A stretch of DNA of 64,000 nt from Bradyrhizobium embrapense (GTDB lineage Bacteria > Pseudomonadota > Alphaproteobacteria > Rhizobiales > Xanthobacteraceae), in NCBI RefSeq assembly GCF_001189235.2, contig NZ_LFIP02000005.1:62001-126000 (forward strand), given 5' to 3'. The number at the start of each line of letters is the position of its first letter. Position 1 is the stretch's first letter. The position numbers and the translations under genes are program-made. This document shows, piece after piece, positions 12,350-40,782 of this stretch. Below the pieces are notes generated by a model. That model saw only the letters and a program-made list of their open reading frames with translations. It made no database searches and had not been told where the DNA came from.

Positions 12350-12370
12350 TCGACCACAAGGAGAGAGAGA

Positions 12371-13933: not shown

Positions 13934-13949
13934 CCGAAGCCGCTGTGAC

Positions 13950-16618: not shown

Positions 16619-16625
16619 GGAAGAA

Positions 16626-16655
16626 TCTCTCACGATTGGTCAATCTGGTGAGAGA
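16626..16655. promoter_or_regulatory. Nested palindrome in acdR-acdS intergenic region
   Basis: Outer arms TCTCTCAC (16626-16633) and GTGAGAGA (16648-16655) enclose inner arms GATTG and CAATC (16634-16638, 16641-16645), an almost perfect 30-bp dyad offset by 2 bp. It starts 8 bp upstream of the acdR ATG. It is a good candidate for the Lrp-type regulator's own site, giving acdR autocontrol and acdS activation. Confidence 0.6.
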
Positions 16656-16779
16656 AAAGATATCATCTGGGTCATATCAGGCAATCTTCGATAAGCACGG
16701 CGCCCGAGTTAGAGAGCACCTTTCGCGCTGGGAGTGATAGGTCTGACCGCGTTCCAGAGACACCAAAGAGGATGCCAGC

Positions 16780-26282: not shown

Positions 26283-26616
26283 CCGTTGCCCCCGCGGCCG
26301 CCGTGAAAACGTGTGATCTCAATGTACGGCAGAGCACGGGGAAGATTCAATCTTCAATTGAAGACGGCTCTGTGTACGCGGCATGAACGCCGGCTGTCGT
26401 TCCGGAGTCTGCGGCCGGCATCCGGCGCGCCTGCACGCTCCGACCGGCGATCCGCAGAATTCAATTGCAACACTTCGGAAAAGGTGGGAATCTCATTCGA
26501 CAGTCATTGCGATATTGCGTCGATATTTTTTGCCCTTCAGGGGTTTCCCCGGTGCGCGCGATCATCTTGCCTGCTGCTTACCGTAGCTTCCACACCATGG
26601 ACAGGAATGGATCGGC
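26283..26616. other. Intergenic region with overlapping palindromes
   Basis: Divergent gap between the DUF2235 gene and a small membrane protein. At 26341-26355 GAAGATT-C-AATCTTC and at 26351-26364 TCTTCAATTGAAGA are perfect palindromes sharing 5 bp, about 60 bp upstream of the DUF2235 start. Nothing else recognisable. Confidence 0.45.
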
Positions 26617-27144
26617 ATGAGCCACCAAGCTCTCGTGACGGTCATTCTCGCGGGATTGGTGGTGGGTGCGTTCGGACTGTTCTGGTGGGTCGGCAGCTAC
26701 TCCGATCGCGTTTTCGTGGGCAGATTCCGGACTCGCTTTCCAGAGAAGACGCTGAGCTACACCGGCGATCAGCTCGGCGAGCTGGTGCAATCCGATCTGC
26801 GGATGAAGTATGTCTTCCCGATTCTGTTCCCGCTCGATCTCATCGTCATGCTGGCGTTGGCAGGCGCGATGGGCGCGGCCTCATCACATTGGCTCAACCA
26901 GATCCGTCCGACTGCTGCGTGGCTCGGCCTTGTCGTGCCGGCGGTGTATCTGCTGAGCGACCTGATCGAGGATTGCTTGCTGAGCTGGCTGTTGCTGCAC
27001 GGCGATCCGCATGCGGCGGCGCGTTCAGTCTCGATCCTGAAGGCGATCACGACGATCAAGCTCGTCAGCATCTTTGCCTCGATTGCGCTGACGCTGGTTG
27101 CGTTCGTCGGATGGCTATTTCACAGCGACTCGCTTCGCGTCTAA
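26617..27144 (+). CDS. Hypothetical integral membrane protein
   Basis: 175 aa with four predicted helices: TVILAGLVVGAFGLFWWVG, FPILFPLDLIVMLALAGAMG, TAAWLGLVVPAVYLLSDLIE and VSIFASIALTLVAFVGWLF. A charged loop (RTRFPEKTLSYTGDQLGEL) follows helix 1. I recognise no family. An AGGA element lies 10 bp before the ATG. It converges with the VWA gene, only 12 bp apart. Confidence 0.75.
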   Translation: MSHQALVTVILAGLVVGAFGLFWWVGSYSDRVFVGRFRTRFPEKTLSYTGDQLGELVQSDLRMKYVFPILFPLDLIVMLALAGAMGAASSHWLNQIRPTAAWLGLVVPAVYLLSDLIEDCLLSWLLLHGDPHAAARSVSILKAITTIKLVSIFASIALTLVAFVGWLFHSDSLRV

Positions 27145-27156
27145 AGCGCTGGCGAT

Positions 27157-28533
27157 CTACTGATACGTCGCCACGATGTCGGAGACGGCGCGCTCGAGCT
27201 GCTGCGCGGTCGCGCATTGGCGCACCACGGTGCAGAAGGTCGCGTAGCGCGGCATCTCGGAATCGCCAAAGCCCCAGACCATGCGGCCTTCGGGGTTGAG
27301 CCACACCAGTCGCTTGGAGCGCTCGCCGATGCGGCGCAGGATGTCGGCGCGCGGGTCGAGATTGTTGCTGCGGGCGTCGCCGAGCACGATCACCGTGGTC
27401 TGCGGCGTGATCGCGCTCATCCAATTGTCTTCGAAATCGGCGAAGGAATTGCCGTAGTCCGATGAGCCGAAGCCGACCTTGGACATGATCTCCTTCATCG
27501 CTTCTTCCGGCGAATTGGACTCCAGGATGTCGCTGACCTCGATCAAATGGCCCGAGAAGGCGAAGGAGCGGACGTCATCGACCACCTCATGCAGGCTGTG
27601 GATCAACAGCAGGAAGAAGTCCGAGACGCGCGCCACCGAGCCGGAGACGTCGCACAGTGCCACGATCTTCGGCCGGTCGCGATGCTTGCGCTTCCACGCG
27701 GTGAGGAACGGTACGCCGCCCCAGGCCGCGTTGCGCCTTAGCGTGCGGCGGACGTCGAGATGGCCGCGGCGCTGACGCTTGCGCGGCTTGGAATAGCGTT
27801 CGCGCAGCCGGCGCGCGATCTGGCGGATCAGCGCGCGCATCTGCTCGACCTGGCGCGGTTCGATCCGCGCCAGCGGGGCGTTGCGCAGGATCTCGTTGCG
27901 CAGGTTTTCGGCCTCCTCGCGCCCATAGAGCATCAGGGCTTGCGAGACCGCGTCGCGAACGGTGCCGCGCAGGCCGTTGAGCGCCTCCTGCAGCCGCTCG
28001 GCGAGCGCCGGATTGCGCGCGGTCTGTTCGTCGATGTCGTCGCGCAGACGCTGGATGCCCATCGCATCGAGGATGCGGGTCTGGAAGATGCCGCGCTGGG
28101 TGAAGTAGCGGATGTCGGGCAGCGAGGCGGCGCCGGAGGCATTGGCGATCGCGGTCGATATTGCGGATCGATCCTGCGACAGCAGCATCTGGGCCAGCGG
28201 TCCGAGATTCTCCTTGGCGGCGCCGCCCGCCGCATCGCCATGCTCGTCGGCCGACGGGTTGGCGCCGGATTCGCTGGTGTCGTCGGTCTTGTTCTGCTCG
28301 GCGTTCTCCTGCTGCGGCTCGGGCTGGCTGAAGAACAGGTCGAAGCATTCGCCGAGTGCACGCTTCTCGTCCTGTGTCTTGGCCAGCGTCAGCAGGAAGG
28401 TGTCGCGCAGGATGTCGCGGTCGGCAAAGCCGACCTGGGCGACCGCCCGCATCGCATCGATGCTTTCGGCAGGCGAGACCCGGACCCCGGCTCCCCGCGC
28501 CGCACGAAAGAAGCGATGCAGGTTCTCGCGCAT
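27157..28533 (-). CDS. VWA domain protein, CoxE-like
   Basis: 458 aa. N-terminal helical region (RFFRAARGAGVRVSPAESID is typical of CoxE-like proteins), an acidic Glu/Gln/Asn-rich insert at about 95-125, and a C-terminal von Willebrand A domain with a MIDAS motif ALCDVSGSVARVS and later VLGDARSN. Partners of MoxR ATPases; together they act as a chaperone/metal-insertion machine, for example for CO dehydrogenase. It starts 6 bp after the MoxR gene. No oxidoreductase client gene is nearby. Confidence 0.9.
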   Translation of the reverse strand: MRENLHRFFRAARGAGVRVSPAESIDAMRAVAQVGFADRDILRDTFLLTLAKTQDEKRALGECFDLFFSQPEPQQENAEQNKTDDTSESGANPSADEHGDAAGGAAKENLGPLAQMLLSQDRSAISTAIANASGAASLPDIRYFTQRGIFQTRILDAMGIQRLRDDIDEQTARNPALAERLQEALNGLRGTVRDAVSQALMLYGREEAENLRNEILRNAPLARIEPRQVEQMRALIRQIARRLRERYSKPRKRQRRGHLDVRRTLRRNAAWGGVPFLTAWKRKHRDRPKIVALCDVSGSVARVSDFFLLLIHSLHEVVDDVRSFAFSGHLIEVSDILESNSPEEAMKEIMSKVGFGSSDYGNSFADFEDNWMSAITPQTTVIVLGDARSNNLDPRADILRRIGERSKRLVWLNPEGRMVWGFGDSEMPRYATFCTVVRQCATAQQLERAVSDIVATYQ

Positions 28534-28539
28534 AATGGT

Positions 28540-29487
28540 TTAGCTGAACACGCCCTGGCGCGACGCTTTGGCGATGAAGGACGAAATCTGCGGCGTCGCG
28601 GCCTCGATATCGGCCTCATATTTCAGGAGCACGTTGAGCGTGTCCTTGACGATCTCGGTGTCGAGCTCGCTCGCTTGCAGCAGCACCAGCACGCGCGCCC
28701 AGTCGATCGCCTCGCTGACCGAGGGTAGCTTCTTCAGGTCGAGCGAGCGGATCTCGTGGATGAAGCCGACCATCTGCTTGCGCAGCGTCTGCGAGATGCC
28801 GGGCACCCGGCTCTCGACGATGCGCTCTTCCAGCTTCTGCTCGGGGAAGCCGATATGCAGATGCAGGCAGCGCCGCTTCAACGCGTCGCCGAGATCGCGC
28901 TCGCTGTTCGAGGTCAGGATCACGGTCGGCGGCGCCACTGCGGAGACGGTGCCGAGTTCGGGGATCGTGACCTGGAAGTCCGAGAGGATCTCCAGCAGCA
29001 GCGATTCGAATTCGGCATCCGATTTGTCGATCTCGTCGATCAAGAGCACGCAGCCGGCCTCTTGCTCCAGTGCCTGCAGCAGCGGCCGCGGCTCGACGAA
29101 TTCCTTGGAGAAGAACACGTCGCCGAAGGTGTGGAGCTGGTCGAGCGCCGCCGCCAGCGACTGCGCGCCGCCGAGCACCTCGCCGAGCTTGTCCTTCAGG
29201 ATCTGGGTGTAGAGCAGCTGCTTGGCGTATTTCCACTCGTACAGCGCCTTGGCCTCGTCGAGGCCCTCATAGCATTGCAGGCGGATCATCTTCATGCCGC
29301 GCCAGGCGGCGATCGCCTTCGCAAGCTCGGTCTTGCCGACACCGGCAGGACCCTCGACCAGGATCGGCTTCTCGATCTGCTGCGACAGATAGACCGCGGT
29401 CGCAATCTGCCGGCTCGCAATATAGCCTTGCGCGGCGAGGCCGCTTTCCACGGCCTCGATCGAGGCGGTGGGCCTGGTGTCAGCCAC
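28540..29487 (-). CDS. MoxR family AAA+ ATPase
   Basis: 315 aa from the GTG at 29487, which has GGAG 9 bp upstream; an in-frame TTG at 29496 sits too close to it. Walker A VEGPAGVGKTELAK, Walker B LLIDEIDKSD, sensor 1 ILTSNSERDLGDALKRR, and the lid domain rich in helices. It works with the downstream VWA protein as a metal-centre or complex-assembly chaperone. The pair is a common module of Rhizobiales genomes, often linked to cox genes; here it stands alone. Confidence 0.93.
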   Translation of the reverse strand: MADTRPTASIEAVESGLAAQGYIASRQIATAVYLSQQIEKPILVEGPAGVGKTELAKAIAAWRGMKMIRLQCYEGLDEAKALYEWKYAKQLLYTQILKDKLGEVLGGAQSLAAALDQLHTFGDVFFSKEFVEPRPLLQALEQEAGCVLLIDEIDKSDAEFESLLLEILSDFQVTIPELGTVSAVAPPTVILTSNSERDLGDALKRRCLHLHIGFPEQKLEERIVESRVPGISQTLRKQMVGFIHEIRSLDLKKLPSVSEAIDWARVLVLLQASELDTEIVKDTLNVLLKYEADIEAATPQISSFIAKASRQGVFS

Positions 29488-29798
29488 GAGGATCAACTCC
29501 GAATTGCCTTAAACCCGGACCTGTTCTGCGCCCGTTGCGGGCAAAGCACAAGGCTCGTTTGGCCCGCAAAGGCATGGAGTTGGCACATGGTTCTGGGGTA
29601 TTCCGCCGAGCGCAATACGGGCTACGGTTCTGCACGCGTCGTTCGAACCTCCCCTTGAAAAGGGGAGGTCGCTTTGCTCGCCAGAGCAAAGCGGGTGGGG
29701 GTCTGCTCTCTCAATAAACGCCGGCGTCTACGGCTGACCCCCATCCCGACCTTCTCCCTTTCAGGGGGAAGGAGAAGAATCTCGCAGCCCGGCTGCCG
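29488..29798. other. Intergenic region with dispersed repeat
   Basis: Apart from the repeat at 29648-29780, nothing coding is seen. It separates the MoxR gene, which starts here leftward, from the small secreted protein, which ends here. Confidence 0.4.
29648..29780. repeat. Dispersed intergenic repeat, copy 2
   Basis: Same framework as 17822-17953: CCTCCCCTT-GAA-AAGGGGAGG stem, the GTCGCTTTGCTCGCCAGAGC block, and a closing TTTCAGGGGGAAGGAGAAG. The first 55 bp are nearly identical to copy 1, then the copies diverge before matching again at the end. Confidence 0.75.
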
Positions 29799-30110
29799 TC
29801 AGCCCGCGCAGCTCTTCACGAAATCCTTGCGCTGCGGGCCGACGATCTTCTGGTCAATCGCCTGCTTCAGGCAGTCGAGATGCGCCTGCGCCATGCAGAG
29901 CTGCATCTGGTCGTGCCGGTCCTGACCCTTCAGCGCCTTCGCCGCGCTCTGGCAGGCCGCGCGCTTGGCACCAGGGACGGGCGCTGCCGCCGACGTGTTC
30001 TCTTGCGCGGGAGCTGCTGCCGGCGCGGGGGTTGAGGCTGATTGCGCGAACGCTGCGATCGAGACCAGCAGCGAACCGGCCGAGACCAGGGCGACGAAGA
30101 GACGTTTCAT
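29799..30110 (-). CDS. Small secreted Cys-containing protein
   Basis: 103 aa. The ATG at 30110 is preceded by GCGGAGGCATATCC, a strong ribosome site, and starts a clean signal peptide (KRLFVALVSAGSLLVSIAAFA). The mature chain has an Ala/Pro-rich spacer and a helical domain with four Cys (RAACQSA, LCMAQ, LDCLKQ, KSCAG). It is likely periplasmic. No function is known to me. The longer frame to 30224 would bury the signal peptide. Confidence 0.75.
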   Translation of the reverse strand: MKRLFVALVSAGSLLVSIAAFAQSASTPAPAAAPAQENTSAAAPVPGAKRAACQSAAKALKGQDRHDQMQLCMAQAHLDCLKQAIDQKIVGPQRKDFVKSCAG

Positions 30111-30284
30111 GGATATGCCTCCGCGGGGTATGATCCGGAGAGGTGGAACGTCGGCTCTCCGGAACGTCATGCTCAGACCAGGAAAGGGATCACGATGCGA
30201 TTTCATGGTCGCGCCGTGGCCCAAGGGAGGCCGAGAACTAGAGACCGTCGCCTGAATGCGGAGTGAATATGCCGGGAGGCCGCT

Positions 30285-30917
30285 TCACCTCAGCGTGAGA
30301 CCGGATGCCGCCTCGAGCTCGGAGATCGCCTGCGCGGCGCTTGCGACCTTGATCGTGGTCATGCCCATCTCACGCGCCGGCTTCAGGTTGACGCCGAGAT
30401 CGTCGAGATAGACGCAGTTCTTCGGGTTCACCTGCAGTGTCTCCACCATCATCTGGTAGATGCGCGGATCGGGCTTGCGCAGGCCGATCTTGGCGGACTC
30501 GATGACATGGTCGAACAGCGCCATGACTTCCGCGACATAGAGCGTGCGCCCGCTATGGCTGCCGATTGCGTTCGACGGCAGATTGTTGGTGATGCAACCG
30601 GTCTTGAACTTCGCCTTGATGCGCTTCAGCGCCTCGACCATTTCGGGCCGCAAGTCGCCGGAGAGCAGCGGCAGCACGTCCTTGCCGCGCACCTCGGCGC
30701 CGAGCGCCTTCGATTCCGTTGCGAACTGCGCGTCGAACGCGTCGATCCCGATCTCGGCGCGCTCGAACTTGGCCCAGGCGTTCTCGAGATGGTTGGCTGC
30801 GTTGGTGCGGCGGATGATGTCGATGGGCAGGCCGCGCTCGGTCTCGTAGCGTGCGAAGGCCTCGAACGGCGAGGTGGTCAAGACGCCGCCGAAATCCCAG
30901 ATCACTGCCTCGATCAT
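30285..30917 (-). CDS. HAD superfamily hydrolase
   Basis: 210 aa from ATG 30917 (GCAGGACTG before it). HAD motif I is VIWDFGGVL (nucleophile Asp); motif II lies in TGCITNNLP; motif III/IV is KIGLRKPDPRIYQMM with YLDDLGVNLKPA. This resembles the haloacid dehalogenase-like/epoxide-hydrolase N-terminal group, usually phosphatases of small metabolites. It follows the methyltransferase gene on the same strand after about 150 bp, so a shared transcript is possible but unproven. Confidence 0.88.
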   Translation of the reverse strand: MIEAVIWDFGGVLTTSPFEAFARYETERGLPIDIIRRTNAANHLENAWAKFERAEIGIDAFDAQFATESKALGAEVRGKDVLPLLSGDLRPEMVEALKRIKAKFKTGCITNNLPSNAIGSHSGRTLYVAEVMALFDHVIESAKIGLRKPDPRIYQMMVETLQVNPKNCVYLDDLGVNLKPAREMGMTTIKVASAAQAISELEAASGLTLR

Positions 30918-31070
30918 CAGTCCTGCCCGTTGCAAAGCGGCGGCTTCGCCCCGGGTCGTCCGGCCGTTTTGGCCGAAGACAGGGCAACGCGCGCTCAGCC
31001 TTCTTTATTGGAATTGCCGCCGATCAGGCAAGCCGCCAGTTCGCAGCAAACTCCGCCATACGGAACGGGC

Positions 31071-31757
31071 TCACCAGATCATCGGAACCAGGCGATAACG
31101 CACGCGCCCGAGATACTCGGCATAGCCGTCGAGTTCGGCGGTGAGCATCCGCTCCTCCATCATGGACCGCAGGCCGAGCAGCGCAGCCATGACCGGCACG
31201 ATGGCAAGGCCATACCACGACCCGAGCAGCAGCGGCGTGCCGACATAGGTCAACAGGCCGCTGGCATAGATCGGGTGGCGCACATAGGCGTATGGCCCCG
31301 TGGTCACCGCAGCATGGCCGCGCTCGCGCTGCATCTTGACGACGAGCGCAGCATAGCTGTTCTCCCGATAGGTCCGGTAGGCGACGTAGAACGACGCCAC
31401 GATCAGCACCGCGCCGGCGCATTGCAGCCAGGAAGGGACGAGCGACGTCTGATAGCGGATCGCGTCGAGCGCCATCAGCGGCAGCCATATCAGCCACAAG
31501 AGCGGCATGATCGATGTGATGACGCGATCCCATCCGACCTGGCCGCGCAATGTGCGCCGCTCCGCCAGCAGACCCGGATCGTGCCTCGCGAGCCATGCCT
31601 CGGTGATCAGCCCGCCGATCGTGATCTCGAGCAGGAACATCCAGGCGCCGGCCCATCGCATGGTGCCGGCCGCGAGAAACAGCAGTGTCCCGAGGCCCAC
31701 AAACGTGCCGGCGGCGCGGCGCAGATTGATGCGAGGGGGATTGCCATTCTGGTTCAT
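31071..31757 (-). CDS. ICMT/PEMT-type membrane methyltransferase
   Basis: 228 aa, about six hydrophobic segments. The C-terminal half carries the isoprenylcysteine carboxyl-methyltransferase signature: GPYAYVRHPIYASGLL, GSWYGLAIVPV, EERMLTAELDGYAEYLGRVRYRLVP. Such enzymes transfer methyl from SAM to carboxyl or other groups of lipophilic substrates. ATG 31757 is preceded by GGAGAGAGAC. It lies downstream of the small peptide genes and PatA/G-like protease on the same strand, so it could modify their product (inference). Gap to the preceding small gene: 96 bp. Confidence 0.85.
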   Translation of the reverse strand: MNQNGNPPRINLRRAAGTFVGLGTLLFLAAGTMRWAGAWMFLLEITIGGLITEAWLARHDPGLLAERRTLRGQVGWDRVITSIMPLLWLIWLPLMALDAIRYQTSLVPSWLQCAGAVLIVASFYVAYRTYRENSYAALVVKMQRERGHAAVTTGPYAYVRHPIYASGLLTYVGTPLLLGSWYGLAIVPVMAALLGLRSMMEERMLTAELDGYAEYLGRVRYRLVPMIW

Positions 31758-31853
31758 GTCTCTCTCTCCGGCGGGCGGCAACGGCGGCGCCGCTGGATCA
31801 GGCGGCCGTTGCGTGGGGTGCGGATCGAAGCGCGGCTCAGTACGTAGGTCCGG

Positions 31854-32195
31854 TCACGGTCTGCGGGTCCAGTTTCGCGCCTGCCCGGAATAGACCTTGC
31901 TCGGCAGCGCGCGTGCCGTGGGATCGAGCAGGATCTTCATCGCGGTGTTGAGCCGCGCCTCCGAATGCGGCGAGCCGTCATGGCGCATCTGCTGCGGAGC
32001 ACCGGGGCCCTGCGGCGGCGCCATGTAGGCCGACGTTGTCGGTGGGGCGGGCGTGGTGGCGATCTTCGGACGGGCGACAACAGCTGCCTCCAGCGGGCGC
32101 CGCGCGTCGGTGATGCTTGACGCTGCGGATGGTGTTTCCGCCGACGGCGGAGAAGCCGCGCTGTCGGATCCGGATTTGCGGGGCGGTCTTGCCAT
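31854..32195 (-). CDS. Small Ala/Pro/Ser-rich protein in protease-peptide cluster
   Basis: 113 aa, low complexity: basic N-terminus (MARPPRKSGSD), a Ser/Ala/Pro/Thr-rich middle, and a C-terminal part with some order (RLNTAMKILLDPTARALPSK). No signal peptide or membrane helix. The ATG has GGAG 7 bp upstream. It follows peptide B by 36 bp, in line with a shared operon. Function unknown; possibly a third precursor or a partner. Confidence 0.55.
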   Translation of the reverse strand: MARPPRKSGSDSAASPPSAETPSAASSITDARRPLEAAVVARPKIATTPAPPTTSAYMAPPQGPGAPQQMRHDGSPHSEARLNTAMKILLDPTARALPSKVYSGQARNWTRRP

Positions 32196-32231
32196 GGCAT
32201 CGGCTCCATATGTTCGGTGATGACGACGATC

Positions 32232-32405
32232 TCAGGATCTCTCTTCGTCGGATGTGGTGCGTTTGGCGATGATCGGGTTGCGATCGCTGATCGCGGCGAG
32301 CAGCGAGGCGTGGCTCACGACGGACCCTACGACGATCTTGCCGGAGGGCTCGATCCGGCGATCGTTCTGCTGCTGTGGGCTCCTGGCGGTGGATTTCTGC
32401 ATCAT
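32232..32405 (-). CDS. Small peptide B, candidate precursor
   Basis: 57 aa from the first of two ATG codons at 32405, with GAGGAGG 6 bp before, one of the strongest ribosome sites in the window. Polar N-terminal half (QKSTARSPQQQNDRRIEP), then a hydrophobic segment (GKIVVGSVVSHASLLAAIS), and a charged tail ending DEERS. No Cys. It is second of the small genes behind the PatA/G-like protease and separated from peptide A by a perfect hairpin. Role as a precursor or immunity peptide is inference. Confidence 0.6.
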   Translation of the reverse strand: MMQKSTARSPQQQNDRRIEPSGKIVVGSVVSHASLLAAISDRNPIIAKRTTSDEERS

Positions 32406-32426
32406 GTCGGCCTCCTCGAGGGTGGA

Positions 32427-32453
32427 GTGGGGCCCGACCGCGTCGGGCCCCAC
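32427..32453 (-). other. Intercistronic 12-bp hairpin between peptides A and B
   Basis: Perfect inverted repeat GTGGGGCCCGAC / GTCGGGCCCCAC with a 3-nt loop, wholly inside the 57-bp gap between peptide A's stop and peptide B's start. No U tract follows, so it is more likely an attenuating or RNA-stabilising element than a full terminator. Confidence 0.7.
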
Positions 32454-32462
32454 GTTTGGCGA

Positions 32463-32657
32463 TCAGATGCCGAGTACGCCGCCGAGGGCGGGCAGAGCCA
32501 CCTTCGCGATGCCACCGAGGATATCGCCCCAGTCCTGCGGGTTGACCGACCCGTTGGTCGCCACTTCAGCAATCCGCTTCGGACCGCGCTCGATGCCCTC
32601 ACACTGGATCGGGCTACGCACGCTGCCGAAGGTCTCAAAGTCGTTCCTTGCGTACAT
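32463..32657 (-). CDS. Small peptide A, candidate precursor with hydrophobic C-terminus
   Basis: 64 aa from ATG 32657, preceded by AAGAAGGAGCTGAAC, a strong ribosome site. The N-terminal 40 residues are polar and leader-like (RNDFETFGSVRSPIQCEG). The last 22 residues form a Gly-rich hydrophobic stretch beginning at Trp43 (WGDILGGIAKVALPALGG, ending LGI), reminiscent of bacteriocin core peptides. One Cys (19). It is the first substantial gene after the PatA/G-like protease, 174 bp downstream. A leader-core organisation is inferred, not shown. Confidence 0.65.
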   Translation of the reverse strand: MYARNDFETFGSVRSPIQCEGIERGPKRIAEVATNGSVNPQDWGDILGGIAKVALPALGGVLGI

Positions 32658-32750
32658 GTTCAGCTCCTTCTTTCGGTTTGAATTGACGGCAACCACGGGA
32701 GGTGGGCACCGACCGGGGCCGCCGTCGCTGGACGTCGCCCAGGGGATCGC

Positions 32751-32795
32751 TCATCGCGTCGGTCCCCTGGACCACGTGACGCCAATTCGCGCCAC
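32751..32795 (-). CDS. Possible 14-aa leader ORF
   Basis: GTG start with GGAGGAG exactly 8 bp upstream, stop TGA overlapping an ATG (ATGA) of a 39-aa frame that runs to 32635 and overlaps the start of peptide A. The strong ribosome site in the gap between protease and peptide A is the main support; it may be a translated leader that couples expression. Confidence 0.25.
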   Translation of the reverse strand: MARIGVTWSRGPTR

Positions 32796-32831
32796 GTTCT
32801 GATCTCCTCCGGACGCAGAGGAGCAATCGCG

Positions 32832-35291
32832 TCAATAGACCTGCCACTGCCGCAATGGTCCGACCGCCACCGGCACCACGTCGCTGACGTCGATCGTGTA
32901 CTGATAGACTTCGCGCGCCTGGGTCAGGACCTGCGTCGGGTTGAAGAAGCGGTAGGTCACGTCGTGGCAGATCGATTCCGGACGGCAGATCAGACTCTGG
33001 TCGACTTCGACGCTGTCGAGCCGCAAGCCCTTCTTGGCGACGTCGGTGAAGATCTTCCGCGTGTTGTAGGCATTCATCGCCGAGTAGTTCAGCGCGCGAT
33101 CCTGCGGTGAAAGACCGACATTGCGGAATTCGTTGTAGATGCGCTCGAGGAAGCCCTCGGCGCCGTCCGGCCAGGTGTTGGTGTCGGGCCCGAACAGCGT
33201 GTAGAGATCCCACTGGTAGAAGCCGCGCCAGTCGGTCACCAGCGTCGGAACGACCGTGCCGTTGAGCAGCCTGGTCGTGTTGGTGCTGTCGACCCAGCCG
33301 GCCATCGAGACCCGCGCCACGCCGCCGCGCGGCGGGAATGCCGGGGGTGTGATCGGTCGTGCGTCAGCGTCGGCGGCGGCCGCCGCCGCCTGTGCCACGG
33401 TGCGGGTCGTCGCGGGATCGTCGTGCGAAACCTCCTGATGCCAGAGCGCCAGGATGAGCGCGGCGAAGAACCCGAGACCGAACACGTCGAGCGGCTTGAT
33501 CGCGTAGATCGGGATCGAATCGATCGTCATCGTCCAGGTGATGGCGTCGGCGTCGGGGAAGTTGTTGCCGGCGCCGGCCGGCGTCGCGGCCTCGCCTTCG
33601 GCCTGGTTCAACAAATAGCGCGCCATGATCGCCGGATTGTACGGCGCCGAGGTATCGCCGGAGCGGTCGCGCTCCGGTCCGAACGCGGGATCGCCGCGGC
33701 CGATCAGGCTGTCGCGCCAGTTGGCGATCGCCTGCACGAAATAATCGAGGCGGGCCTCCTTGCCGAAATCGTAGAACAGCCGGCCGATCGGGAAGGCGAG
33801 TTGACCGGTGGACTCGGCCGTAGCGCCCTGCGGACGCATCCCGCCGCCGCAACTGCAGTTCTTCTCGCTGGCTCGAACCGCGGGGGCTTCGTACATCGGC
33901 AGCGCCTGGGGCATTGCGACGGGAAGCGCGCTGCTCGGCGTCAGCATGGGAAGTTGCTGCGGCTGCAGCCAGGTTTGCGGCATCATGCCGGCCTGAGGCA
34001 TCGCCATCTGCGGCATCATCATCGGTGGCATGACCATCTGCGGTGCCGGTGCCGGCATCCAGACCATGTCGCCGCCCGCATGAGGTACGTGATACGGATA
34101 AGGCGTGGGCGCTGCGATCGGCGCGGCGGCGACGCCGTGATCAACAGGAGCGGCCATGGCCGCAGGTGCTGCCGGCGAGGCGGGCTGCGCCTCGCTTGGC
34201 ATCATCCCGGCGCTGCTTCGCAGGACCGAGCCGTCCGGCCCGAATATGCGCGGAGCCGATGGTGCAGACATTGCTGATAGATCTCCCATGGAACCCTCTC
34301 TGGTTGCAGTTGGCTGAGCGGCGGATGACGGTTGGACGAAAGGGCGCGCGGACACTCCCCAGAAGCGGGGAGGCGCGGCCGTGGTACCCGACGGCATAAC
34401 GGCGTCCGCCTGCTCGCCAAGCAGGGCGGCGACAGCCGCGGGAATATCGAGCCGTCCGGCGAGGCAGCGCGAGGCGCCGCCGTCGTTGGGGCACGGCGCC
34501 GCGCTTTCAAGCAGCGCGGCACGGACGGCTTGCGGGTCGGCCTTGCGTCCGTTCTGGCGCAGGCATGAGAGCAGCAGCGCGACGACGCCGGACACGATCG
34601 GCGCAGCGTAGCTCGTTCCGGACCGCAGGCTGACGTTGCGGACCGGCGAGGCGCCGGCGATGTTCTCGCCCGGCGCCAGGACGCCGTTCTCCAGATAGGC
34701 GTCGCCGAAATTGCTGAACGGCAGCGGATTGCCGGCGAGGTCGCAGGCGCCGACCGCAAGCACGGAGGCGAGGCTGCCCGGCACCTGCACGCAGCGGCAG
34801 CCATCATTGCCGGCGGCGGCGACGATCAGCTTGCCGGCGCGTTCGCAGGCGCGCACCGCGTCGACCAGAATGCGATCGGCCTGTCCTGTCGCGGATTGCT
34901 GGCCGCTGCTGATGTTGATGATGTCGGCGCCCACGGCCAGCGCCTGGTTGATCGCGAGCGCCAATGTGCTTTGCGAGGACGGCTCGATCTGTCCGGCGGC
35001 ATTCTCGCGATAGATCGAGAACACGGTTGCGCTGCAGTTCGGCGCGATGCCGAGCACCGGGCTGCCGGGCGTACCCATCAACACGCTCGTGACATGCGTG
35101 CCGTGCTCTGACTGGATCATTGATGAAGAGGGCGCGACGAACTCGCCGCCCCTGGCGACGCGGGCCTGCCTGAGCGAGGGATGATTGAGATCGACCGGGC
35201 CGTCGATGATTGCGATCTTCACCGCGGGGTCGCCACCCGACGTGCTCTGCCACAAGGCATTCAGACCAGCGATGTCGGCAACTGGATTCAT
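32832..35291 (-). CDS. PatA/PatG-like subtilisin-family peptide maturation protease
   Basis: 819 aa from ATG 35291 (AGGA 8 bp before); this start gives the N-terminus usual in PatA/PatG proteases, whereas the TTG at 35357 has no good site. S8 domain 1-290 with triad Asp30 (AIIDGPVD), His63 (SEHGTHV), Ser227 (GTSYAAP) and oxyanion Asn162. A Pro/Met/Ala-rich linker at about 300-475 contains MPPMMMPQMAMPQ, then a CSCGGG element at 479-484. The C-terminal 320 residues match the PatA/PatG tail (GRLFYDFGKEARLDYF, then TIDSIPIYAIKPLDVFG). No signal peptide, so cytoplasmic. Relatives remove leader peptides from cyanobactin precursors. Confidence 0.85.
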   Translation of the reverse strand: MNPVADIAGLNALWQSTSGGDPAVKIAIIDGPVDLNHPSLRQARVARGGEFVAPSSSMIQSEHGTHVTSVLMGTPGSPVLGIAPNCSATVFSIYRENAAGQIEPSSQSTLALAINQALAVGADIINISSGQQSATGQADRILVDAVRACERAGKLIVAAAGNDGCRCVQVPGSLASVLAVGACDLAGNPLPFSNFGDAYLENGVLAPGENIAGASPVRNVSLRSGTSYAAPIVSGVVALLLSCLRQNGRKADPQAVRAALLESAAPCPNDGGASRCLAGRLDIPAAVAALLGEQADAVMPSGTTAAPPRFWGVSARPFVQPSSAAQPTATREGSMGDLSAMSAPSAPRIFGPDGSVLRSSAGMMPSEAQPASPAAPAAMAAPVDHGVAAAPIAAPTPYPYHVPHAGGDMVWMPAPAPQMVMPPMMMPQMAMPQAGMMPQTWLQPQQLPMLTPSSALPVAMPQALPMYEAPAVRASEKNCSCGGGMRPQGATAESTGQLAFPIGRLFYDFGKEARLDYFVQAIANWRDSLIGRGDPAFGPERDRSGDTSAPYNPAIMARYLLNQAEGEAATPAGAGNNFPDADAITWTMTIDSIPIYAIKPLDVFGLGFFAALILALWHQEVSHDDPATTRTVAQAAAAAADADARPITPPAFPPRGGVARVSMAGWVDSTNTTRLLNGTVVPTLVTDWRGFYQWDLYTLFGPDTNTWPDGAEGFLERIYNEFRNVGLSPQDRALNYSAMNAYNTRKIFTDVAKKGLRLDSVEVDQSLICRPESICHDVTYRFFNPTQVLTQAREVYQYTIDVSDVVPVAVGPLRQWQVY

Positions 35292-35641
35292 GAAATCGAT
35301 CCTGGCCGGTCTGCTGCGAGTTCGCGCAGCCGATCCGCCTTCCACGGCAATCTGCAACCCGCGCAGCGAACGAAAAGAGCGGCATGTCGCTGCGTTGGTG
35401 CCGTTGTCGCAGGTGTGCCGGGAAAGGCCTATTCACCGCGGTGGATCAGAAAGGATCGAGGCGATGATGCGGATCGACCGATCCATGAGATCGATGTTGC
35501 GCCTCGAAAGATCGATCAAAGGGTTTAGTCGGGATCGTCTACGGCGTGATGCGTCCCCATGCGTGCAAGGCCGCGTCGCATCTCTGCAGCGATGCGTACA
35601 CGCGCTGCGGTCAGCCGAATACGGAATTCAGGTTGCTGGTG
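35292..35641. other. Gap between regulator and protease genes
   Basis: 350 bp with no convincing gene. ATCGATC-like motifs recur (35453-35520, including AAAGATCGATCAAA), which could be regulator sites, but no clear promoter is visible. Both flanking genes point left. Confidence 0.35.
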
Positions 35642-36316
35642 TCAGTCGAGCTCGCGGCGGCGATCGAGAACCGGCGCAGATGATGCGATCCACGGCGCTT
35701 CGCGCACCCGCCGCATCGCTTGCGCCCGGCGCGGCAGGCCGAGTTTCTGCAGCACGTGATGGACGTGATGCTTGACGGTGGCAAGACTGAGATTGAGATC
35801 GCGCGCGATCTCCTTGTTCGACATGCCTTGCCCGATGAGCTTGAGAACCTCGCCTTCGCGGCGCGTCAAGCCCTGGTCCGTGTCGATAGCATCCGTCTGA
35901 CGTTCCATGCAAAATAGCGCGCGCAGCAGTCCGCCGGAGATCTCGGCGCTGCAGGCGAGCCGCCCGGATGCCACGTCCGACAGCGCGCGGCACAGCTCGT
36001 CGAAACTGGCATTCCGGGAAATGTAGCCGCTGAACCCGGCCCGGCCGCAGCGGACCACGTCGCGCCGGTCCTCGTTGAGGCCGAGCGCCACCAGCGCGAT
36101 CTCCGCATGCTCACTCGCAATCACGCGCACTTCGTCGAGATCGATGCCCTGCGTGACGTCGATCAGAATGACGCTCACACTGCCGGTCTCGAGGGTCGCG
36201 CGCAGGCCGGAGAGATCGGAAACCGCCGCCTCGACGGCAAACTCGGCGTGGTTCTGGAAACTCGAGGTGAGCCCCTCGCTGAACAGCCTGATCGGCGTGA
36301 CGACCGCGATCCTCAT
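35642..36316 (-). CDS. LuxR/NarL-type regulator with degenerate receiver domain
   Basis: 224 aa from ATG 36316, with GAGGA close before it. The receiver-like domain (1-120) keeps the central Asp53 (ILIDVTQ) but lacks the paired acidic residues near the start (VVTPIRLF instead of a DD/DE pair) and the conserved Lys (GYISRN). The C-terminal LuxR HTH spans 148-205 (LTRREGEVLKLIGQGMSNKE, LSLATVKHHVHHVLQKL). Phosphorylation is therefore doubtful and another signal is likely. Upstream of and co-oriented with the PatA/G-like protease, it is the best candidate for its regulator. Confidence 0.85.
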   Translation of the reverse strand: MRIAVVTPIRLFSEGLTSSFQNHAEFAVEAAVSDLSGLRATLETGSVSVILIDVTQGIDLDEVRVIASEHAEIALVALGLNEDRRDVVRCGRAGFSGYISRNASFDELCRALSDVASGRLACSAEISGGLLRALFCMERQTDAIDTDQGLTRREGEVLKLIGQGMSNKEIARDLNLSLATVKHHVHHVLQKLGLPRRAQAMRRVREAPWIASSAPVLDRRRELD

Positions 36317-36751
36317 ATTATCCTCGAACTCAACAAAATGGCGGATGGAAAGCCGTCTGGTGGTCGACGGTACCGGCATCCAGAAAGTCATGAAGGTAAG
36401 TATGCGGTATGCTGCCAGAGGTTGTATCGATATCGGGTCGAAATTACGGCGTTGATGCGCGCCGGATCAAGAGATGCAGTTCACATTGCCGCGTCGTCGG
36501 GAATTGCGCAGCCCGATCTGATGTGTTGCATATCGCGACAAGACGAAGACGCGGGGAGCGGGCGTGCGATGGCGATGCAGGAAATCTGAAGGCGACTTCA
36601 ACGCCGTAGTCGTCGACCGCTAGATATTTAGACAATTGACGCGTGCGGGCCCGGATGCTCTGTACAACATTGTGTGTTCTCCAAGATGCGGCGTGAGCGA
36701 GGCAATGCGCGCCTCGCACGTGCTTAGATTCAGGCAGATCGGCAAGGTTCC
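36317..36751. other. Divergent promoter region, regulator / trypsin-like protease
   Basis: 435 bp, somewhat lower in GC than its surroundings. No gene recognised. It must contain promoters for the LuxR-type gene (left) and the secreted protease (right). A TTGACG at about 36635 could be a -35 element, without a good partner. Confidence 0.35.
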
Positions 36752-37513
36752 ATGACGAGATTTATTCGAGCGGCAGCCCTTCTGACCCTGTTGATGGCAA
36801 CGCCGGCGGTAGCGATCGTCGGTGGTGGCGCACCATCGACGGATGGCGTCGCGCGCGCCGTCGTCACCATCGTCGGCTCGCGTGGCAATTTCTGCACCGG
36901 CGCGCTGATCGCGCCGAAGGTGGTGCTGACTGCGGCACATTGCGTGCAGCCCGGTGCCGACTACAAGATCGTCGAGTATGGGCCGGACCGGCAGCCGAAG
37001 CTGCAGGACGTCAAGACGGTTGCGATCCATCCCGGGTTTCGGATGCAGGCGATGACCAATCATGTGGCGACCGCCGATGTCGCGCTGCTGCAGCTTGCGG
37101 CGCCAGTCGCTGGCAAGGCGCCGGCCGTGCTGGGCATGCCCAACATTCCGATCCAGACCGGCGGCCGCTTTACCGTCGCGGGTGTCGGTGTCACCGTCAG
37201 CGGCGACGGCAAGAGCGGCGGCAGCATTCGTGTCGCGGGCCTGATCGCGAGCGGTAAGCCCGGCACGCTGCAGATCCGTCTCGTCGATCCGGTCGGGCAG
37301 GGTGTGCGCGACGGCCTTGGCGCCTGCACCGGCGATTCCGGAGCGCCCGTGTTCGAGGACAAGCAAGGCGGACCCGTCATCGTCGGCGTGGTGAGCTGGT
37401 CCACCGGCCCGAACGGCACCGCCGGCTGCGGCGGCATCACCGGCGTGACGCCGCTTACGCTCTATCGCGACTGGGTGATGCAGACCGCGCTGCAGTGGGG
37501 CGCGAGCTTTTAG
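36752..37513 (+). CDS. Secreted trypsin-like serine protease (S1)
   Basis: 253 aa. Signal peptide RFIRAAALLTLLMATPAVA is followed directly by the mature N-terminus IVGGG, the classic trypsin start, so maturation may need only signal cleavage. Complete triad: His63 (TAAHC), Asp109 (ATADVALL), Ser196 (CTGDSGAPV). Several Cys suit disulphides in the periplasm or outside. It is divergent from the LuxR-type regulator of the PatA/G-like cluster, so co-regulation is possible. Residue choice in the specificity pocket is not assignable with confidence. Confidence 0.9.
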   Translation: MTRFIRAAALLTLLMATPAVAIVGGGAPSTDGVARAVVTIVGSRGNFCTGALIAPKVVLTAAHCVQPGADYKIVEYGPDRQPKLQDVKTVAIHPGFRMQAMTNHVATADVALLQLAAPVAGKAPAVLGMPNIPIQTGGRFTVAGVGVTVSGDGKSGGSIRVAGLIASGKPGTLQIRLVDPVGQGVRDGLGACTGDSGAPVFEDKQGGPVIVGVVSWSTGPNGTAGCGGITGVTPLTLYRDWVMQTALQWGASF

Positions 37514-37550
37514 CCCAAAATTGTATGCTTCGGACGGCTCGCACTCGCAG

Positions 37551-37598
37551 TTCCGTCATCCTGAGGCTCGCTCCGCTCGCACCTCAGGATAACGGAAC
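37551..37598. repeat. Palindromic repeat at convergent gene ends
   Basis: TTCCGTCATCCTGAGG ... CCTCAGGATAACGGAA around a CGCTCCGCTCG centre. Related to the CATCCTGAGG elements at 44823-44947 and 63921-63959. It lies between two converging genes and may terminate both. Confidence 0.6.
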
Positions 37599-37620
37599 GT
37601 AGAGCGCGCGCGTCTGAAAC

Positions 37621-39843
37621 CTAATGCCCCGCCGCCTTGTTGGCGGCGGCGTTGTTCAGCACGATCAGGCCGTCGACGGCGACGCCGAGCTTGCTGTTGA
37701 TCAGGAACGGATTGACGTCGATCGAGGCGATGCGGCCATTGGCGTCGGCCATCAGGTTGGAGAGCCCGACCAGCGCCTTCACCGCCGACGCCTCGTGCAG
37801 CGCAGGCTTGCCGCGATAGCCCTTCAACTTGACTCCGGCCTTGGTCTTGGCGATCAGCTCCTTCGCCTCGGCGGCATCGAGCGGCGCGCCGGCAAGGGCG
37901 ACGTCCTTCATCAGCTCGATGTCGACGCCGCCGGTGCCGAACAGCACCACGGGGCCCATCTCGGCATCGAGCGAGGCGCCGACCACGAGCTCGAGGTCGG
38001 CCTTGACCTGCTGCGCGATCAGGATGCCCTCGAGCTTCGGCTTGCCCTTCAGCTTCTTCACCCGCGCGGTGATGTCGTTGAACGCCTTCTTCACCTCTGC
38101 GGCGTTGGCAAGGTTCAGGACCACACCGCCGATATCCGACTTGTGCAGGATATCGGGGCTGACAACCTTCGCGACCACCGGGAAGCCGATCGTCTTGGCG
38201 ATCTTCACGGCCTCGGCCGCGGTCTGCGCGACGTCTTCCTTCGAGATCGGGATGCCGTAGGCCTTGAGCAGTTGCTTCGAGGCGACCTCGTCGAGCGCGG
38301 CGGCGCCGTTGGCGGCCTTCAGCGTCTTCTCCAGCACCGCGCGCGCGGAGGCCTTCGAGCTCGACACGATGTCGGGCACTTCCTTGCGCAGACCGGAATA
38401 TTCGATCAACGACTTGATCGCGCCGACCGCGCGGTCGAGGCCCTGCAAGACCGTGATATTGGGCAGCGACTTGCGTAGTCCCTTGGTAAAGTCAGTGAAG
38501 CCGATCGACATCGCGCTGATATAGATCACCGGCTTGTTGGCCTGGCCCGCCATGTCGTTGACGATCCGCAGATTGCGCTCGCGCAGCTCGTGCGGCGCCT
38601 TCGGCAGCTCGGCGTCGATGATGATGATGTCGGTGTCGGGATCGTCGATCATGATCTTGATCGACTTCATGTAGACGGAAGGATCGACCACCGCGGCGAA
38701 GCCGGCGTCGAGCGGGTTGCCGACGATGCTGCCGGGCCCGAGCATCTTCGCCAATTGCTCCGATGCATTGGGGCTCAGCGGCGCGAAATTCAGGCCGGCG
38801 GAATAGAACGCGTCGATCAAGAGGCCGCGCTTGCCGCCCGACAGCGACACCGCCGCGAGGCGGTTGCCCTTCGGCGGGTCGGCATGGACGAAACATTCGG
38901 TGGTTTCGATCAATTCATCCAGCCCGCGCACGCGGATCACGCCTTCGCGGGTCGAGATCGCATCGAATGTCTCGATCGAGCCGGCGAGCGCGCCGGTATG
39001 TGCCATCGCGGCGGCCCGGCCACCCTCGGAGGCGCCGAGCTTGAGCGCGATCACCGGCTTGCCCGCGGCGCGCGCCGCCTTGCAGGCATCGCGGAATACT
39101 TTGGTGTTCCTGACGCCTTCGAGATAGACCACGATGACCCGGATGCTCGGATCGGCGGCGAAATAGCTCATCAGGTCCGGGGTCTCGAGCCCGGATTCAT
39201 TGCCTGTGGTGACCATGTAGCCGACGCCGACGCCGCGATCCTCCAGAGCCTGGCGGATCGCCATCACGATCGCGCCGGATTGGCCGGCGATCGCAACCGC
39301 GCCCGGCTCCATCGTGACGATGCGATCGTCGATATTGGTGAACAGGTTCTCGCCGGCGCTGAGATTGCCGAGGCAATTTGGGCCGGTGACCGCGAGCCCG
39401 GTCTCCTTGATCGCCTGCTTCAGCTCGACCGCGAGCCGCTGGCTTTCTTCGTCCTGCAGCTCGCTGAAGCCCGATGTGACGATGGTCGCCGAGCGGGCGC
39501 CGGCAGCGGCCGCGTCGCGGATCACCTGCACGGCAAAGCGGGCCGGCACCAGCACCAGCACGTGGTCGGGCTTTTCGGGAAGGCTGGCGAAATCCTTGTA
39601 GCAGGTGACGCCCCAGATCGTTTCGCGCTTGGCGTTGATCGGAAACAGGCCGCCGGCATATTGGTATTTGATGAGATTGTTCCAGATCCGTTCGGCGTAG
39701 TTGCCGGGCTTGTCGGTGGCGCCGACCAGCACAATGTTGCGCGGGTGCAGCATCGCATGGACGCTTTTGACAATGTCGCTGGCGTCAGCGGGCGGTGCCC
39801 ATTTGCGGGACGAGTGTGACGTGCTGCCTGCGAAAGCTTCCAT
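37621..39843 (-). CDS. Acyl-CoA synthetase (NDP-forming), acetate-CoA ligase family
   Basis: 740 aa from ATG 39843. Domains: CoA-binding (LHPRNIVLVGATDKPGNYAERIWNN), succinyl-CoA-ligase-like region (GPNCLGNLSAGENLF; the active-site His is near AMAHTGALAGS), and a C-terminal ATP-grasp domain (KTIGFPVVAKVVSPDILHKSDIGGVVLNL, GAPLDAAEAKELI). This fused alpha-beta order is typical of bacterial ADP-forming enzymes and protein-acetylation relatives. It makes or uses acyl-CoA with ADP+Pi. The substrate is unknown; no GNAT domain is fused. The in-frame extension to 39897 seems non-coding. Confidence 0.92.
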   Translation of the reverse strand: MEAFAGSTSHSSRKWAPPADASDIVKSVHAMLHPRNIVLVGATDKPGNYAERIWNNLIKYQYAGGLFPINAKRETIWGVTCYKDFASLPEKPDHVLVLVPARFAVQVIRDAAAAGARSATIVTSGFSELQDEESQRLAVELKQAIKETGLAVTGPNCLGNLSAGENLFTNIDDRIVTMEPGAVAIAGQSGAIVMAIRQALEDRGVGVGYMVTTGNESGLETPDLMSYFAADPSIRVIVVYLEGVRNTKVFRDACKAARAAGKPVIALKLGASEGGRAAAMAHTGALAGSIETFDAISTREGVIRVRGLDELIETTECFVHADPPKGNRLAAVSLSGGKRGLLIDAFYSAGLNFAPLSPNASEQLAKMLGPGSIVGNPLDAGFAAVVDPSVYMKSIKIMIDDPDTDIIIIDAELPKAPHELRERNLRIVNDMAGQANKPVIYISAMSIGFTDFTKGLRKSLPNITVLQGLDRAVGAIKSLIEYSGLRKEVPDIVSSSKASARAVLEKTLKAANGAAALDEVASKQLLKAYGIPISKEDVAQTAAEAVKIAKTIGFPVVAKVVSPDILHKSDIGGVVLNLANAAEVKKAFNDITARVKKLKGKPKLEGILIAQQVKADLELVVGASLDAEMGPVVLFGTGGVDIELMKDVALAGAPLDAAEAKELIAKTKAGVKLKGYRGKPALHEASAVKALVGLSNLMADANGRIASIDVNPFLINSKLGVAVDGLIVLNNAAANKAAGH

Positions 39844-40010
39844 GGAGCCTGCCCTTATCCTTGTTCTGTTCGTTTCCTCTGGCCCACGGCGGGTCACCGC
39901 AGAACGTGATTTTCATTGTTTTTATGGCCGATGGAAGGGGGTAGCAACTCACGCTGCTGCAAGTCAGGGCAACGCTTGCAATATCCCGGCAGGCGCAAAA
40001 TCGGTGCGCG

Positions 40011-40580
40011 TCAGGAACCGGATTCGATCATGGTCGCGTGCAGCAGATAGCGTTCGGGGCCCGAGGTCAGCGCGTCGAATGGCCAGCAGGTCGAGAGCAC
40101 CAGCTCATACCGGTCGGTGAGCGGATCGATGCCGGATTGGTCGAAGCGGACGACCGCGCTGCGATCGGCGCGGTAGCGAAACATCCTGCCGTCGCTTCGC
40201 GTGACGTCGATCTCGTCGCCGATTGTGACATCTTTCAGAAACCGGAAATGGGTGTCGCGATGCGCGGAATAGACCGCGACGCCCGGCTGGCCGGCATCGA
40301 CGCTCTGCTCGACATGGCCGGGACCGAACGCCAGCGCCTGGCCGCTGCTCCCGGCCAGCACGATCGCGGAAGCATGCAGGCGCTTCACCTCGATCCTGGC
40401 CACCGGCCAGGTGTCGGCCCAGCGCCACGGTTTTACCGGATGGTCGGTTGCGATGCTCTGTGTAAAGGCGCGCTCCAGCAGCACCTGCGCAAGCAGCGCC
40501 TTGGCATGGATGTAGGCGCCCTGGCCGAACAGGATCAGGCCGATGAGGGCGAAGGCGAGGGGCGGGATGAAGCGGGGCAT
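40011..40580 (-). CDS. Class GN sortase
   Basis: 189 aa Gram-negative sortase. A membrane anchor (PPLAFALIGLILFGQGAYIHAKA) is followed by the catalytic domain with His107 in SAHRDTHF, Cys165 in VLSTCWPF and Arg177 in PERYLL. ATG 40580 has GGGAG 7 bp before; the frame reaches back to 40763 only through a repeat. It pairs with the LPKTA-bearing VWA protein encoded just upstream, a known two-gene unit of Proteobacteria in which the sortase has that one substrate. Confidence 0.93.
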   Translation of the reverse strand: MPRFIPPLAFALIGLILFGQGAYIHAKALLAQVLLERAFTQSIATDHPVKPWRWADTWPVARIEVKRLHASAIVLAGSSGQALAFGPGHVEQSVDAGQPGVAVYSAHRDTHFRFLKDVTIGDEIDVTRSDGRMFRYRADRSAVVRFDQSGIDPLTDRYELVLSTCWPFDALTSGPERYLLHATMIESGS

Positions 40581-40591
40581 GCTCTTACTCC

Positions 40592-40679
40592 CGTCATTGC
40601 GAGCGTAAAGCGAAGCAATCCATCGAGCGGCATGTGCGGACCCATGGATAGCTTCGTCGCTTCGCTCCTCGCAATGACG
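40592..40679. repeat. CATTGCGAG palindromic repeat
   Basis: CGTCATTGCGAGCG-AAAGCGAAGCAATCCAT at one side and CTTCGTCGCTTCGCTCCTCGCAATGACG at the other form a long imperfect inverted repeat, a common alphaproteobacterial REP-like element. It occupies the gap between the sortase substrate and sortase genes. Confidence 0.7.
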
Positions 40680-40695
40680 CTTGGTGAGAAAAGTG

Positions 40696-40739
40696 GCGCG
40701 CGCGGCCCCCGGGGGGACGGGTGAGAAGGCCGCGCGCGC
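40696..40739 (-). other. Strong intercistronic hairpin before the sortase gene
   Basis: GCGCGCGCGGCC / GGCCGCGCGCGC, a perfect 12-bp stem with a 20-nt loop, 43 bp after the stop of the sortase substrate gene. No U tract on the minus strand. It could attenuate read-through so that enzyme is made in smaller amount than substrate (inference). Confidence 0.6.
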
Positions 40740-40782
40740 TCTGAAAGAGAAGGTCGGGGGCACCTCCTCCTTTCATCCGACG

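Follow-up and report, generated by a model that had tools for sequence, protein, structure and literature searches.

A PatA-type protease and a precursor-like peptide in an apparently mobile gene block of Bradyrhizobium embrapense

The stretch of Bradyrhizobium embrapense DNA analyzed here (contig NZ_LFIP02000005.1, positions 62,001 to 126,000; 64,000 nucleotides, hereinafter called the window, whose own numbering is used below) contains a block of about 5.8 kb with six co-directional genes, encoding a LuxR/NarL-type regulator (luxR), an S8-family protease, two small peptides (peptides A and B), a 113-aa protein (p113), and an ICMT-type methyltransferase. All six had been named in an initial annotation of the window, and all are present on the minus strand, as are the features within them, at the sizes given there. 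That annotation also proposed a protease-driven peptide pathway, a view that the linkage, selection, and homologs described below support, peptide A being the likely substrate. In our reading, which we consider probable, the block is a self-contained PatA-only propeptide system that works without YcaO or a macrocyclase and releases a probably linear amphipathic peptide. Peptide A would be translated with a 41-residue leader, which the PatA-type protease would recognize through a PxQxx[P/G][V/I]xR segment, and a single cut after SVNPQ would free a hydrophobic amphipathic helix of 22 to 23 residues (DWGDILGGIAKVALPALGGVLGI in the window). The product would probably be linear because no heterocyclizing or macrocyclizing enzyme is involved, and it is the character of the core that points to a membrane-active, most likely antagonistic, role.

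The protease gene (positions 32832 to 35291; 819 aa) passes the NCBIfam PatA/PatG model TIGR03895 (461 bits against a cutoff of 421) and matches Pfam Peptidase_S8, PatG_D, and PatG_C, all above their gathering scores, which bears out the PatA/PatG-type motifs noticed earlier in the C terminus of the subtilase. The PatG_D and PatG_C region (about residues 500 to 816; positions 32844 to 33794) constitutes a cyanobactin domain of unknown function (DUF) that is related to the solved PatG DUF structure 4uvq (1.5e-25) and is joined to the S8 domain by an Ala/Pro/Met-rich linker. Among solved structures, the N-terminal (PatA-type) cyanobactin proteases aligned best with the catalytic part (4h6w, 248 bits; 4h6v, 224 bits), whereas PatG-type macrocyclases scored at most 156 bits against the S8 domain (4h6x, 156 bits). 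In alignments whose first segment is weak, 4h6x is about 36 residues longer than the block protease between the Asp and His regions. Residues D30, H63, and S227, which from subtilisin motifs we take to be the catalytic triad, are invariant across 23 aligned proteases. A whole-genome search returned only one match to the protease in its own genome, and that match is without the extra stretch; thus, no PatG-type macrocyclase (i.e., a second protease with a capping insertion) was detected genome-wide. By these comparisons the protease is of the leader-cutting PatA type and not a PatG macrocyclase, so that the PatA half of the earlier "PatA/PatG" assignment stands and the PatG half does not. An AlphaFold model of the protease, built from 18 closely related rows, had a mean predicted local distance difference test score (pLDDT) of 30 and was not used. 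The same data bear on the idea of cleavage followed by transamidation, as performed by PatG, which would yield a head-to-tail cyclic amphipathic bacteriocin. Such a product would suit a member of the PatA/PatG family, and hydrophobicity and helical structure are features of circular bacteriocins; however, the S8 alignments and the missing macrocyclase stretch argue against it, and the peptide A frame stops at the end of the core, leaving no recognition sequence III (RSIII; AYDG) to release. We therefore regard a cyclic product as very unlikely.

The gene for peptide A, the proposed precursor (64 aa; positions 32463 to 32657), follows the protease gene and has AAGGAG before its ATG, just as peptide B (57 aa; positions 32232 to 32405) has GAGGAGG, in agreement with the strong ribosome sites reported initially. 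Across Bradyrhizobium orthologs, the first 41 residues of peptide A are near-invariant, and the last 22 to 23 vary in both sequence and length while remaining hydrophobic. Among 24 distinct sequences, nonsynonymous divergence (pN) is 0.018 in the leader versus 0.170 in the end, and the corresponding dN/dS ratios are 0.17 and 0.42. The leader contains the segment SPIQCEGIERG (residues 15 to 25; positions 32583 to 32615), a relaxed form of PxQxxPVxR, and closes with SVNPQ (residues 37 to 41; positions 32535 to 32549), the proposed PatA-like cleavage signal, with the cut predicted after Q41. The proposed mature peptide, DWGDILGGIAKVALPALGGVLGI (residues 42 to 64; positions 32466 to 32534), is a putative amphipathic helix whose helical moment exceeds that of shuffled sequences (p = 0.007); 14 of 19 cores, including all seven of the window type from Bradyrhizobium, do so at p < 0.05. 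An AlphaFold model of peptide A contains a helix at residues 40 to 61 and an unstructured leader, at a mean pLDDT of only 54. No NCBIfam or Pfam model, including the PatE models TIGR03678 and DUF5837, matched peptide A at E values up to 10, and no GG of the double-glycine bacteriocin kind precedes the proposed core. The combination of a short gene-encoded precursor having a conserved leader and a variable core with an adjacent dedicated maturation enzyme is that of a ribosomally synthesized and post-translationally modified peptide in the wide sense, and peptide A likely behaves as a precursor.

A close ortholog of the protease occurs in 27 of 265 genomes of the genus Bradyrhizobium (window included; one ortholog is split into two frames), and 17 loci, largely from the same strains, turned up when named genomes were scanned. 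The order luxR-protease-peptide A-peptide B-p113-ICMT is kept in 28 of the 28 Bradyrhizobium loci examined, with luxR truncated in L057 and the p113 start shifted in L044. Locus L057 (genome G091; positions 6066 to 9293) appears decayed, its protease extending over two frames and its luxR match covering only residues 85 to 224. After removal of this split-protease row and of identical and stop-containing rows, 24 to 27 rows per gene gave dN/dS ratios of 0.16 to 0.32 for every block gene, indicating purifying selection (protease, 0.18; LuxR, 0.16; ICMT, 0.20; peptide B, 0.25; p113, 0.30). All close relatives of the protease thus retain the small genes, whose frames are conserved at the codon level, and the pathway proposed in the initial annotation withstands both of the refuting conditions stated there.

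Judged against empty sites, the block extends from position 30921 to 36751, bordered by an HAD gene (positions 30285 to 30920) and a trypsin-like gene (positions 36752 to 37513). The HAD gene was found in all 14 genomes chosen for having no close protease ortholog, and it adjoins the trypsin-like gene in 12 of them, with gaps of 91 to 160 bp in eleven and about 1.1 kb in one. Because these two genes are adjacent in block-free genomes, the unit comprises the six genes and excludes its borders; the trypsin-like and HAD genes were rejected as block parts on this ground, as was a CoA-ligase-like gene, which is contiguous with both in 4 of the 14 block-free genomes. The small Bradyrhizobium block seems to be mobile, being present or absent as a unit. 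That the small frames are chance neighbors of a general subtilase has some appeal in G+C-rich DNA, where short frames abound (146 of at least 40 aa over positions 26000 to 42000), but the 28 of 28 linkage, the purifying selection, the unit-wise presence and absence, the homologs in other lineages, and the near absence of the leader motif from control loci (see below) reduce its probability to almost nothing.

Small frames adjoining other PatG_C proteases start with LPSQSPPVHR, SPIQSAPVQR, MPQQVPPVDR, and similar segments. These match NILPQQGQPVIR, a piece of the PatE leader from which the strict regular expression P.Q..P[VI].R was derived. In 29 loci (30 less L087, a second G353 locus that had no tblastn match), this expression matched 37 times near the protease, that is, within 2.5 kb 3' of it and on its strand, and 9 times elsewhere, the latter including frames of tandem loci just beyond 2.5 kb. 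These counts correspond to 0.454 versus 0.0104 matches per kb-strand, a 44-fold enrichment of leader-segment peptides beside the protease, with near matches in 16 of the 29 loci; this enrichment is not fully independent, because the segment had been seen by eye in some loci before the expression was written. Nine loci fetched later form an independent set and gave 9 near and 0 far strict matches, in five of the nine loci. The relaxed expression matched 51 times near the protease and 37 times elsewhere, in 21 of the 29 loci (window included). Twenty control loci, picked because the match covered S8 and not the DUF (DUF status being judged by match extent) and probably mostly orthologs, contained 2 strict matches in about 598 kb-strand, and none occurred near three short PatA-like proteases (frames of 303 to 353 aa). 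Eight of the 29 loci had no relaxed match near the protease: the segment lies farther away in L059, L060, and L063, occurs in a looser form in L081 and L086, and is absent from L075, L076, and L085. In the later set, none was found in L171 to L173, where PatG_C is weak (52 to 56 bits) and, for L172 and L173, the protease ends were estimated. SPIQCEGIERG ranked 7th when the window was scored in six frames (105,788 positions) with a matrix of 33 sites compiled without window orthologs, G177, and G891 (4 sites came from G085, a Bradyrhizobium genome with a different protease). Sub-threshold NCBIfam matches were also obtained for a Nostoc peptide with TIGR03678 (positions 7 to 20; E = 0.059) and for a G590 peptide with the PatB model (positions 1 to 12; E = 0.042). 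At the sequence level, then, the leader segment is linked to PatG_C-domain proteases across Alphaproteobacteria, Streptomyces, and cyanobacteria. The earlier statement that no PatE-type partner is present accordingly holds for PatE model matches and does not hold for the leader, since a relaxed PatE leader segment sits in peptide A.

According to a passage of PMC10885120, PatA cuts after the signal G(L/V)E(A/P)S. The pattern G[LV]E[AP][SADN] follows the segment in 11 of 59 distinct frames, against 0.05 expected by shuffling; the 59 frames came from 25 of the 29 loci, and about four of them (one each in L059, L077, L095, and L097) have no start and are probably chance frames. Ten of the 11 peptides with this strict site come from four Streptomyces plasmids and the remaining one from G590, and the ten are not independent, because three of the plasmids share a nearly identical leader. 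In the tandem copies of Streptomyces sp. NBC_00299, one leader is repeated up to GVEA and is followed by different hydrophobic ends. This processed-precursor pattern, together with the placement of the variable end of peptide A behind a loosely PatA-like signal, bears on another reading, in which peptide A is a partner or inhibitor of the protease and the true substrate lies elsewhere. A leader far more conserved than the end would be expected of a protease-binding segment, and the substrate role of peptide A is itself a prediction; still, the two arrangements just mentioned make the partner or inhibitor role unlikely.

Relatives of peptide A lie behind the protease in three lineages outside the main group. 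G1627, which belongs to another genus of the same family, has a DUF that is 68% identical and a peptide reading RPLQCEGVPRGP..GSVNPQ and then FDWGGLLGSVAKTALPIVAGALA, as well as homologs of peptide B (by tblastn) and p113. G891, from another order (DUF 49% identical), has two copies of peptide A, MRKPMQCEGVERGP..GSVNP and MRKPIQSPGVERGP, together with a p113 homolog (4e-7 in tblastn) and a frame, recognized by eye only, that resembles peptide B. G177, a Bradyrhizobium genome with a 39% identical protease, also has two copies, both with RPKQLPAVDR and one with HVNAS followed by GFWDTLGSIAKVAVPIIASTV; peptide B and p113 were not seen on its 5.3-kb contig. The homologs in G1627, G891, and G177 thus define a conserved core of protease and peptide A, accompanied by peptide B and p113 in two of the three lineages. 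In the protease tree, in which several deep forks are left open, the window group joins G891 (100/100), three Streptomyces rows join the protease of a Gloeothece cyanobactin cluster (98/97), and a third clade contains seven rows from Alphaproteobacteria, most of which have Cys-rich peptides.

Several observations weigh against a PatA-only propeptide system of the kind proposed. The window segment is a relaxed one (G for P), so that the strict expression has 0 matches in the window, and six other window positions outscore SPIQCEGIERG with the matrix. VNPQ fits only the relaxed site pattern, [LVI][EQN][AP][SADNQ], which occurs in 23 of the 59 frames versus 2.4 expected from shuffles that ignore shared ancestry. 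Beyond the Bradyrhizobium-type peptides, amphipathicity reaches significance in 7 of 12 cores and in neither of the two from G891 (p = 0.12 and 0.20). None of the six block genes, the set screened, matches an NCBIfam or Pfam transporter model above the cutoff, which leaves export unexplained, and no C39 peptidase-exporter is among these six, the only genes screened for exporters. Peptide B and p113 are left unaccounted for in the scheme. With respect to leader docking, the DUF is the conserved partner, but nuclear magnetic resonance work described in part of PMC4259220 showed no interaction between the PatG DUF on its own and the PatE precursor, which counts against the simplest docking model; the leader may be read only by the intact protease, or else by the S8 domain. 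In the literature consulted, the sole partner suggested for the segment is the oxidase ThcOx, without density (PMC5108345, in which NILPQQGQPVIR was used with a cyanobactin oxidase), and an oxidase is not among the genes of the block.

Peptide B and p113 (113 aa, Ala/Pro/Ser-rich; positions 31854 to 32195) are conserved companions and at most candidate precursors. Neither matches any NCBIfam model at E values up to 1, which leaves a PatB/PatC likeness without a match; p113 has a conserved C terminus (..DPxARxxxSxxYSGQxRxW), and a loose PPQ..G.P...R stretch in p113 and a KPLQ stretch in the G1627 peptide B can be seen by inspection. Both may be accessory proteins, possibly for delivery, protection, or scaffolding. 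The last gene encodes an ICMT/PEMT-type membrane methyltransferase (228 aa; positions 31071 to 31757). No ICMT homolog was detected in the stretches fetched from G891, G1627, and G177 (the last being the short contig mentioned above), and the methyltransferase was rejected as a core enzyme because none lies near the G891 or G1627 protease-peptide cores. It is best viewed as a probable optional addition in Bradyrhizobium, and the earlier suggestion that methylation may finish the product is not supported.

The LuxR-type protein (positions 35642 to 36316), a block member in Bradyrhizobium, probably regulates the block. In a related reading, the released peptide is not a membrane-active agent and instead acts as a pheromone controlling this adjacent regulator. 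The luxR gene is in the block in all 28 loci (one truncated), a response-regulator-type gene lies divergently beside the G177 protease, and about 0.8 kb upstream of the G1627 protease there is a divergently oriented match to a LuxR-type helix-turn-helix (45% over 53 residues). On the other hand, the receiver domain of the regulator is below the Pfam cutoff, the block has no sensor kinase, the 16 kb around the G891 core contained no LuxR match with an E value below 0.3, and the cores are long, hydrophobic, and in many cases amphipathic. A pheromone function is thus a minority possibility, and a membrane-active peptide released by the PatA-type protease remains our preferred reading.

The initial annotation stressed the lack of YcaO, and no YcaO (PF02624) match was indeed found in the genome of the window (G000). 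This lack is not new in itself, because, as stated in part of PMC4663559, cyanobactin clusters "may" encode PatD, which makes the heterocyclase optional. Of 26 genomes with such proteases that were searched, 18 have a YcaO match and eight do not (the window, G085, G303, G590, G353, G615, G1332, and G891). The gene lies within the protease locus in three (G116, G113, and G057); in the other 15 it is found on a different contig or at a distance of more than 0.5 Mb. The three cyanobactin-like loci share the protease family with the block and have precursors with RPIQTAPVAR, IPQQSAPVRR, and KPVQIAPVSR, but they differ in that a YcaO protein lies between two proteases and the precursors retain LAELSEE or LSELSEE. 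In these loci (L059 of G116, positions 9539 to 17379; L060 of G113, 3459 to 12400; L063 of G057, 5335 to 12977), the two PatG_C proteases surround YcaO and a short precursor; two of the three precursors have AYSG near the end, and that of G116 passes Pfam DUF5837 (45.8 bits; cutoff, 25). A passage of a 2015 review describes cyanobactin clusters as known only from cyanobacteria.

Compared with PatA of patellamide-type clusters, the block protease has the closest S8 domain among solved structures and the same C-terminal DUF, and it adjoins substrate-like peptides with PxQxxPVxR, some relatives of which have G(L/V)E(A/P)S-like sites. In contrast to those systems, the genome carrying the block has no PatG macrocyclase or YcaO match, peptide A has neither RSI nor AYDG, the core is longer and amphipathic, and an Ala/Pro/Met-rich linker separates S8 from the DUF. 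The block therefore appears to resemble the PatA step of cyanobactin maturation, yet it has no macrocyclase, RSIII, or precursor-model match that would make it a cyanobactin cluster. Judged by titles and the beginnings of abstracts, the open-license literature yielded no description of this system.

Two further groups of loci resemble the block. S8 peptidases on Streptomyces plasmids (NBC_00299, NBC_01361, S. xanthophaeus, and HUAS 31) likewise have a PatG_C protease followed by several PxQxxP[V/I]xR-like peptides, which in several cases end in a hydrophobic stretch after GVEA or a related motif; they differ in having a neighboring regulator annotated as BTAD-type and several precursors per locus. 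One peptide of a different type lies shortly after the protease in each of four Streptomyces loci (L077, positions 9580 to 9768; L078, about 9460 to 9648; L094, about 8450 to 8650; L095, 5116 to 5304); these end in SGCxxLxGxARQxCY or similar and are possibly companions rather than precursors. The alphaproteobacterial genomes G590, G1332, G1378, G1384, and G350 also combine a PatG_C protease with leader-segment peptides, and G590 and G1332 have no YcaO match, but their cores are Cys-rich instead of amphipathic helices and their proteases form a separate clade. Cys-rich core families recur between genera (L083, L084, L097, L098, L099, and L166), e.g., SDCCGAGRCCVGACLPFGGGCAGICVPNIGQC and SGCxIFKKxACGTA..CIDC-like, and are preceded by the same kind of leader. 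In L062 (positions 10642 to 11602), from the YcaO-free genome G085, four different leader-segment peptides are encoded consecutively after a single PatG_C protease. A third small leader-segment gene with the conserved tail NPCLxQLTTF, possibly encoding a companion protein, occurs in L080 (positions 10374 to 10568) and L082 (positions 8686 to 8871).

A portion of PMC4259220 describes the C-terminal DUF of PatA and PatG as present in all cyanobactin pathways characterized by 2014 and as adopting a novel fold of unassigned function. The DUF-containing protease and the leader segment stay linked here despite the loss of the heterocyclase and macrocyclase, which suggests that the protease is a partner of the segment. 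We tentatively suggest, as a possibility that we hold at less than even chance, that the block belongs to a widespread and apparently undescribed class in Alphaproteobacteria, Streptomyces, and cyanobacteria, in which the system is made up solely of a PatA-type protease and short LPxQxxPVxR precursors, the segment serves as a protease address read via the DUF, and cyanobactins are a branch that later added YcaO and a macrocyclase. The block would offer a minimal two-component system for studying leader recognition and cleavage. New products are also predicted, namely amphipathic helices from rhizobia and Streptomyces and, from other Alphaproteobacteria, peptides rich in Cys; searches that start from ring-forming enzymes, YcaO among them, would miss these.

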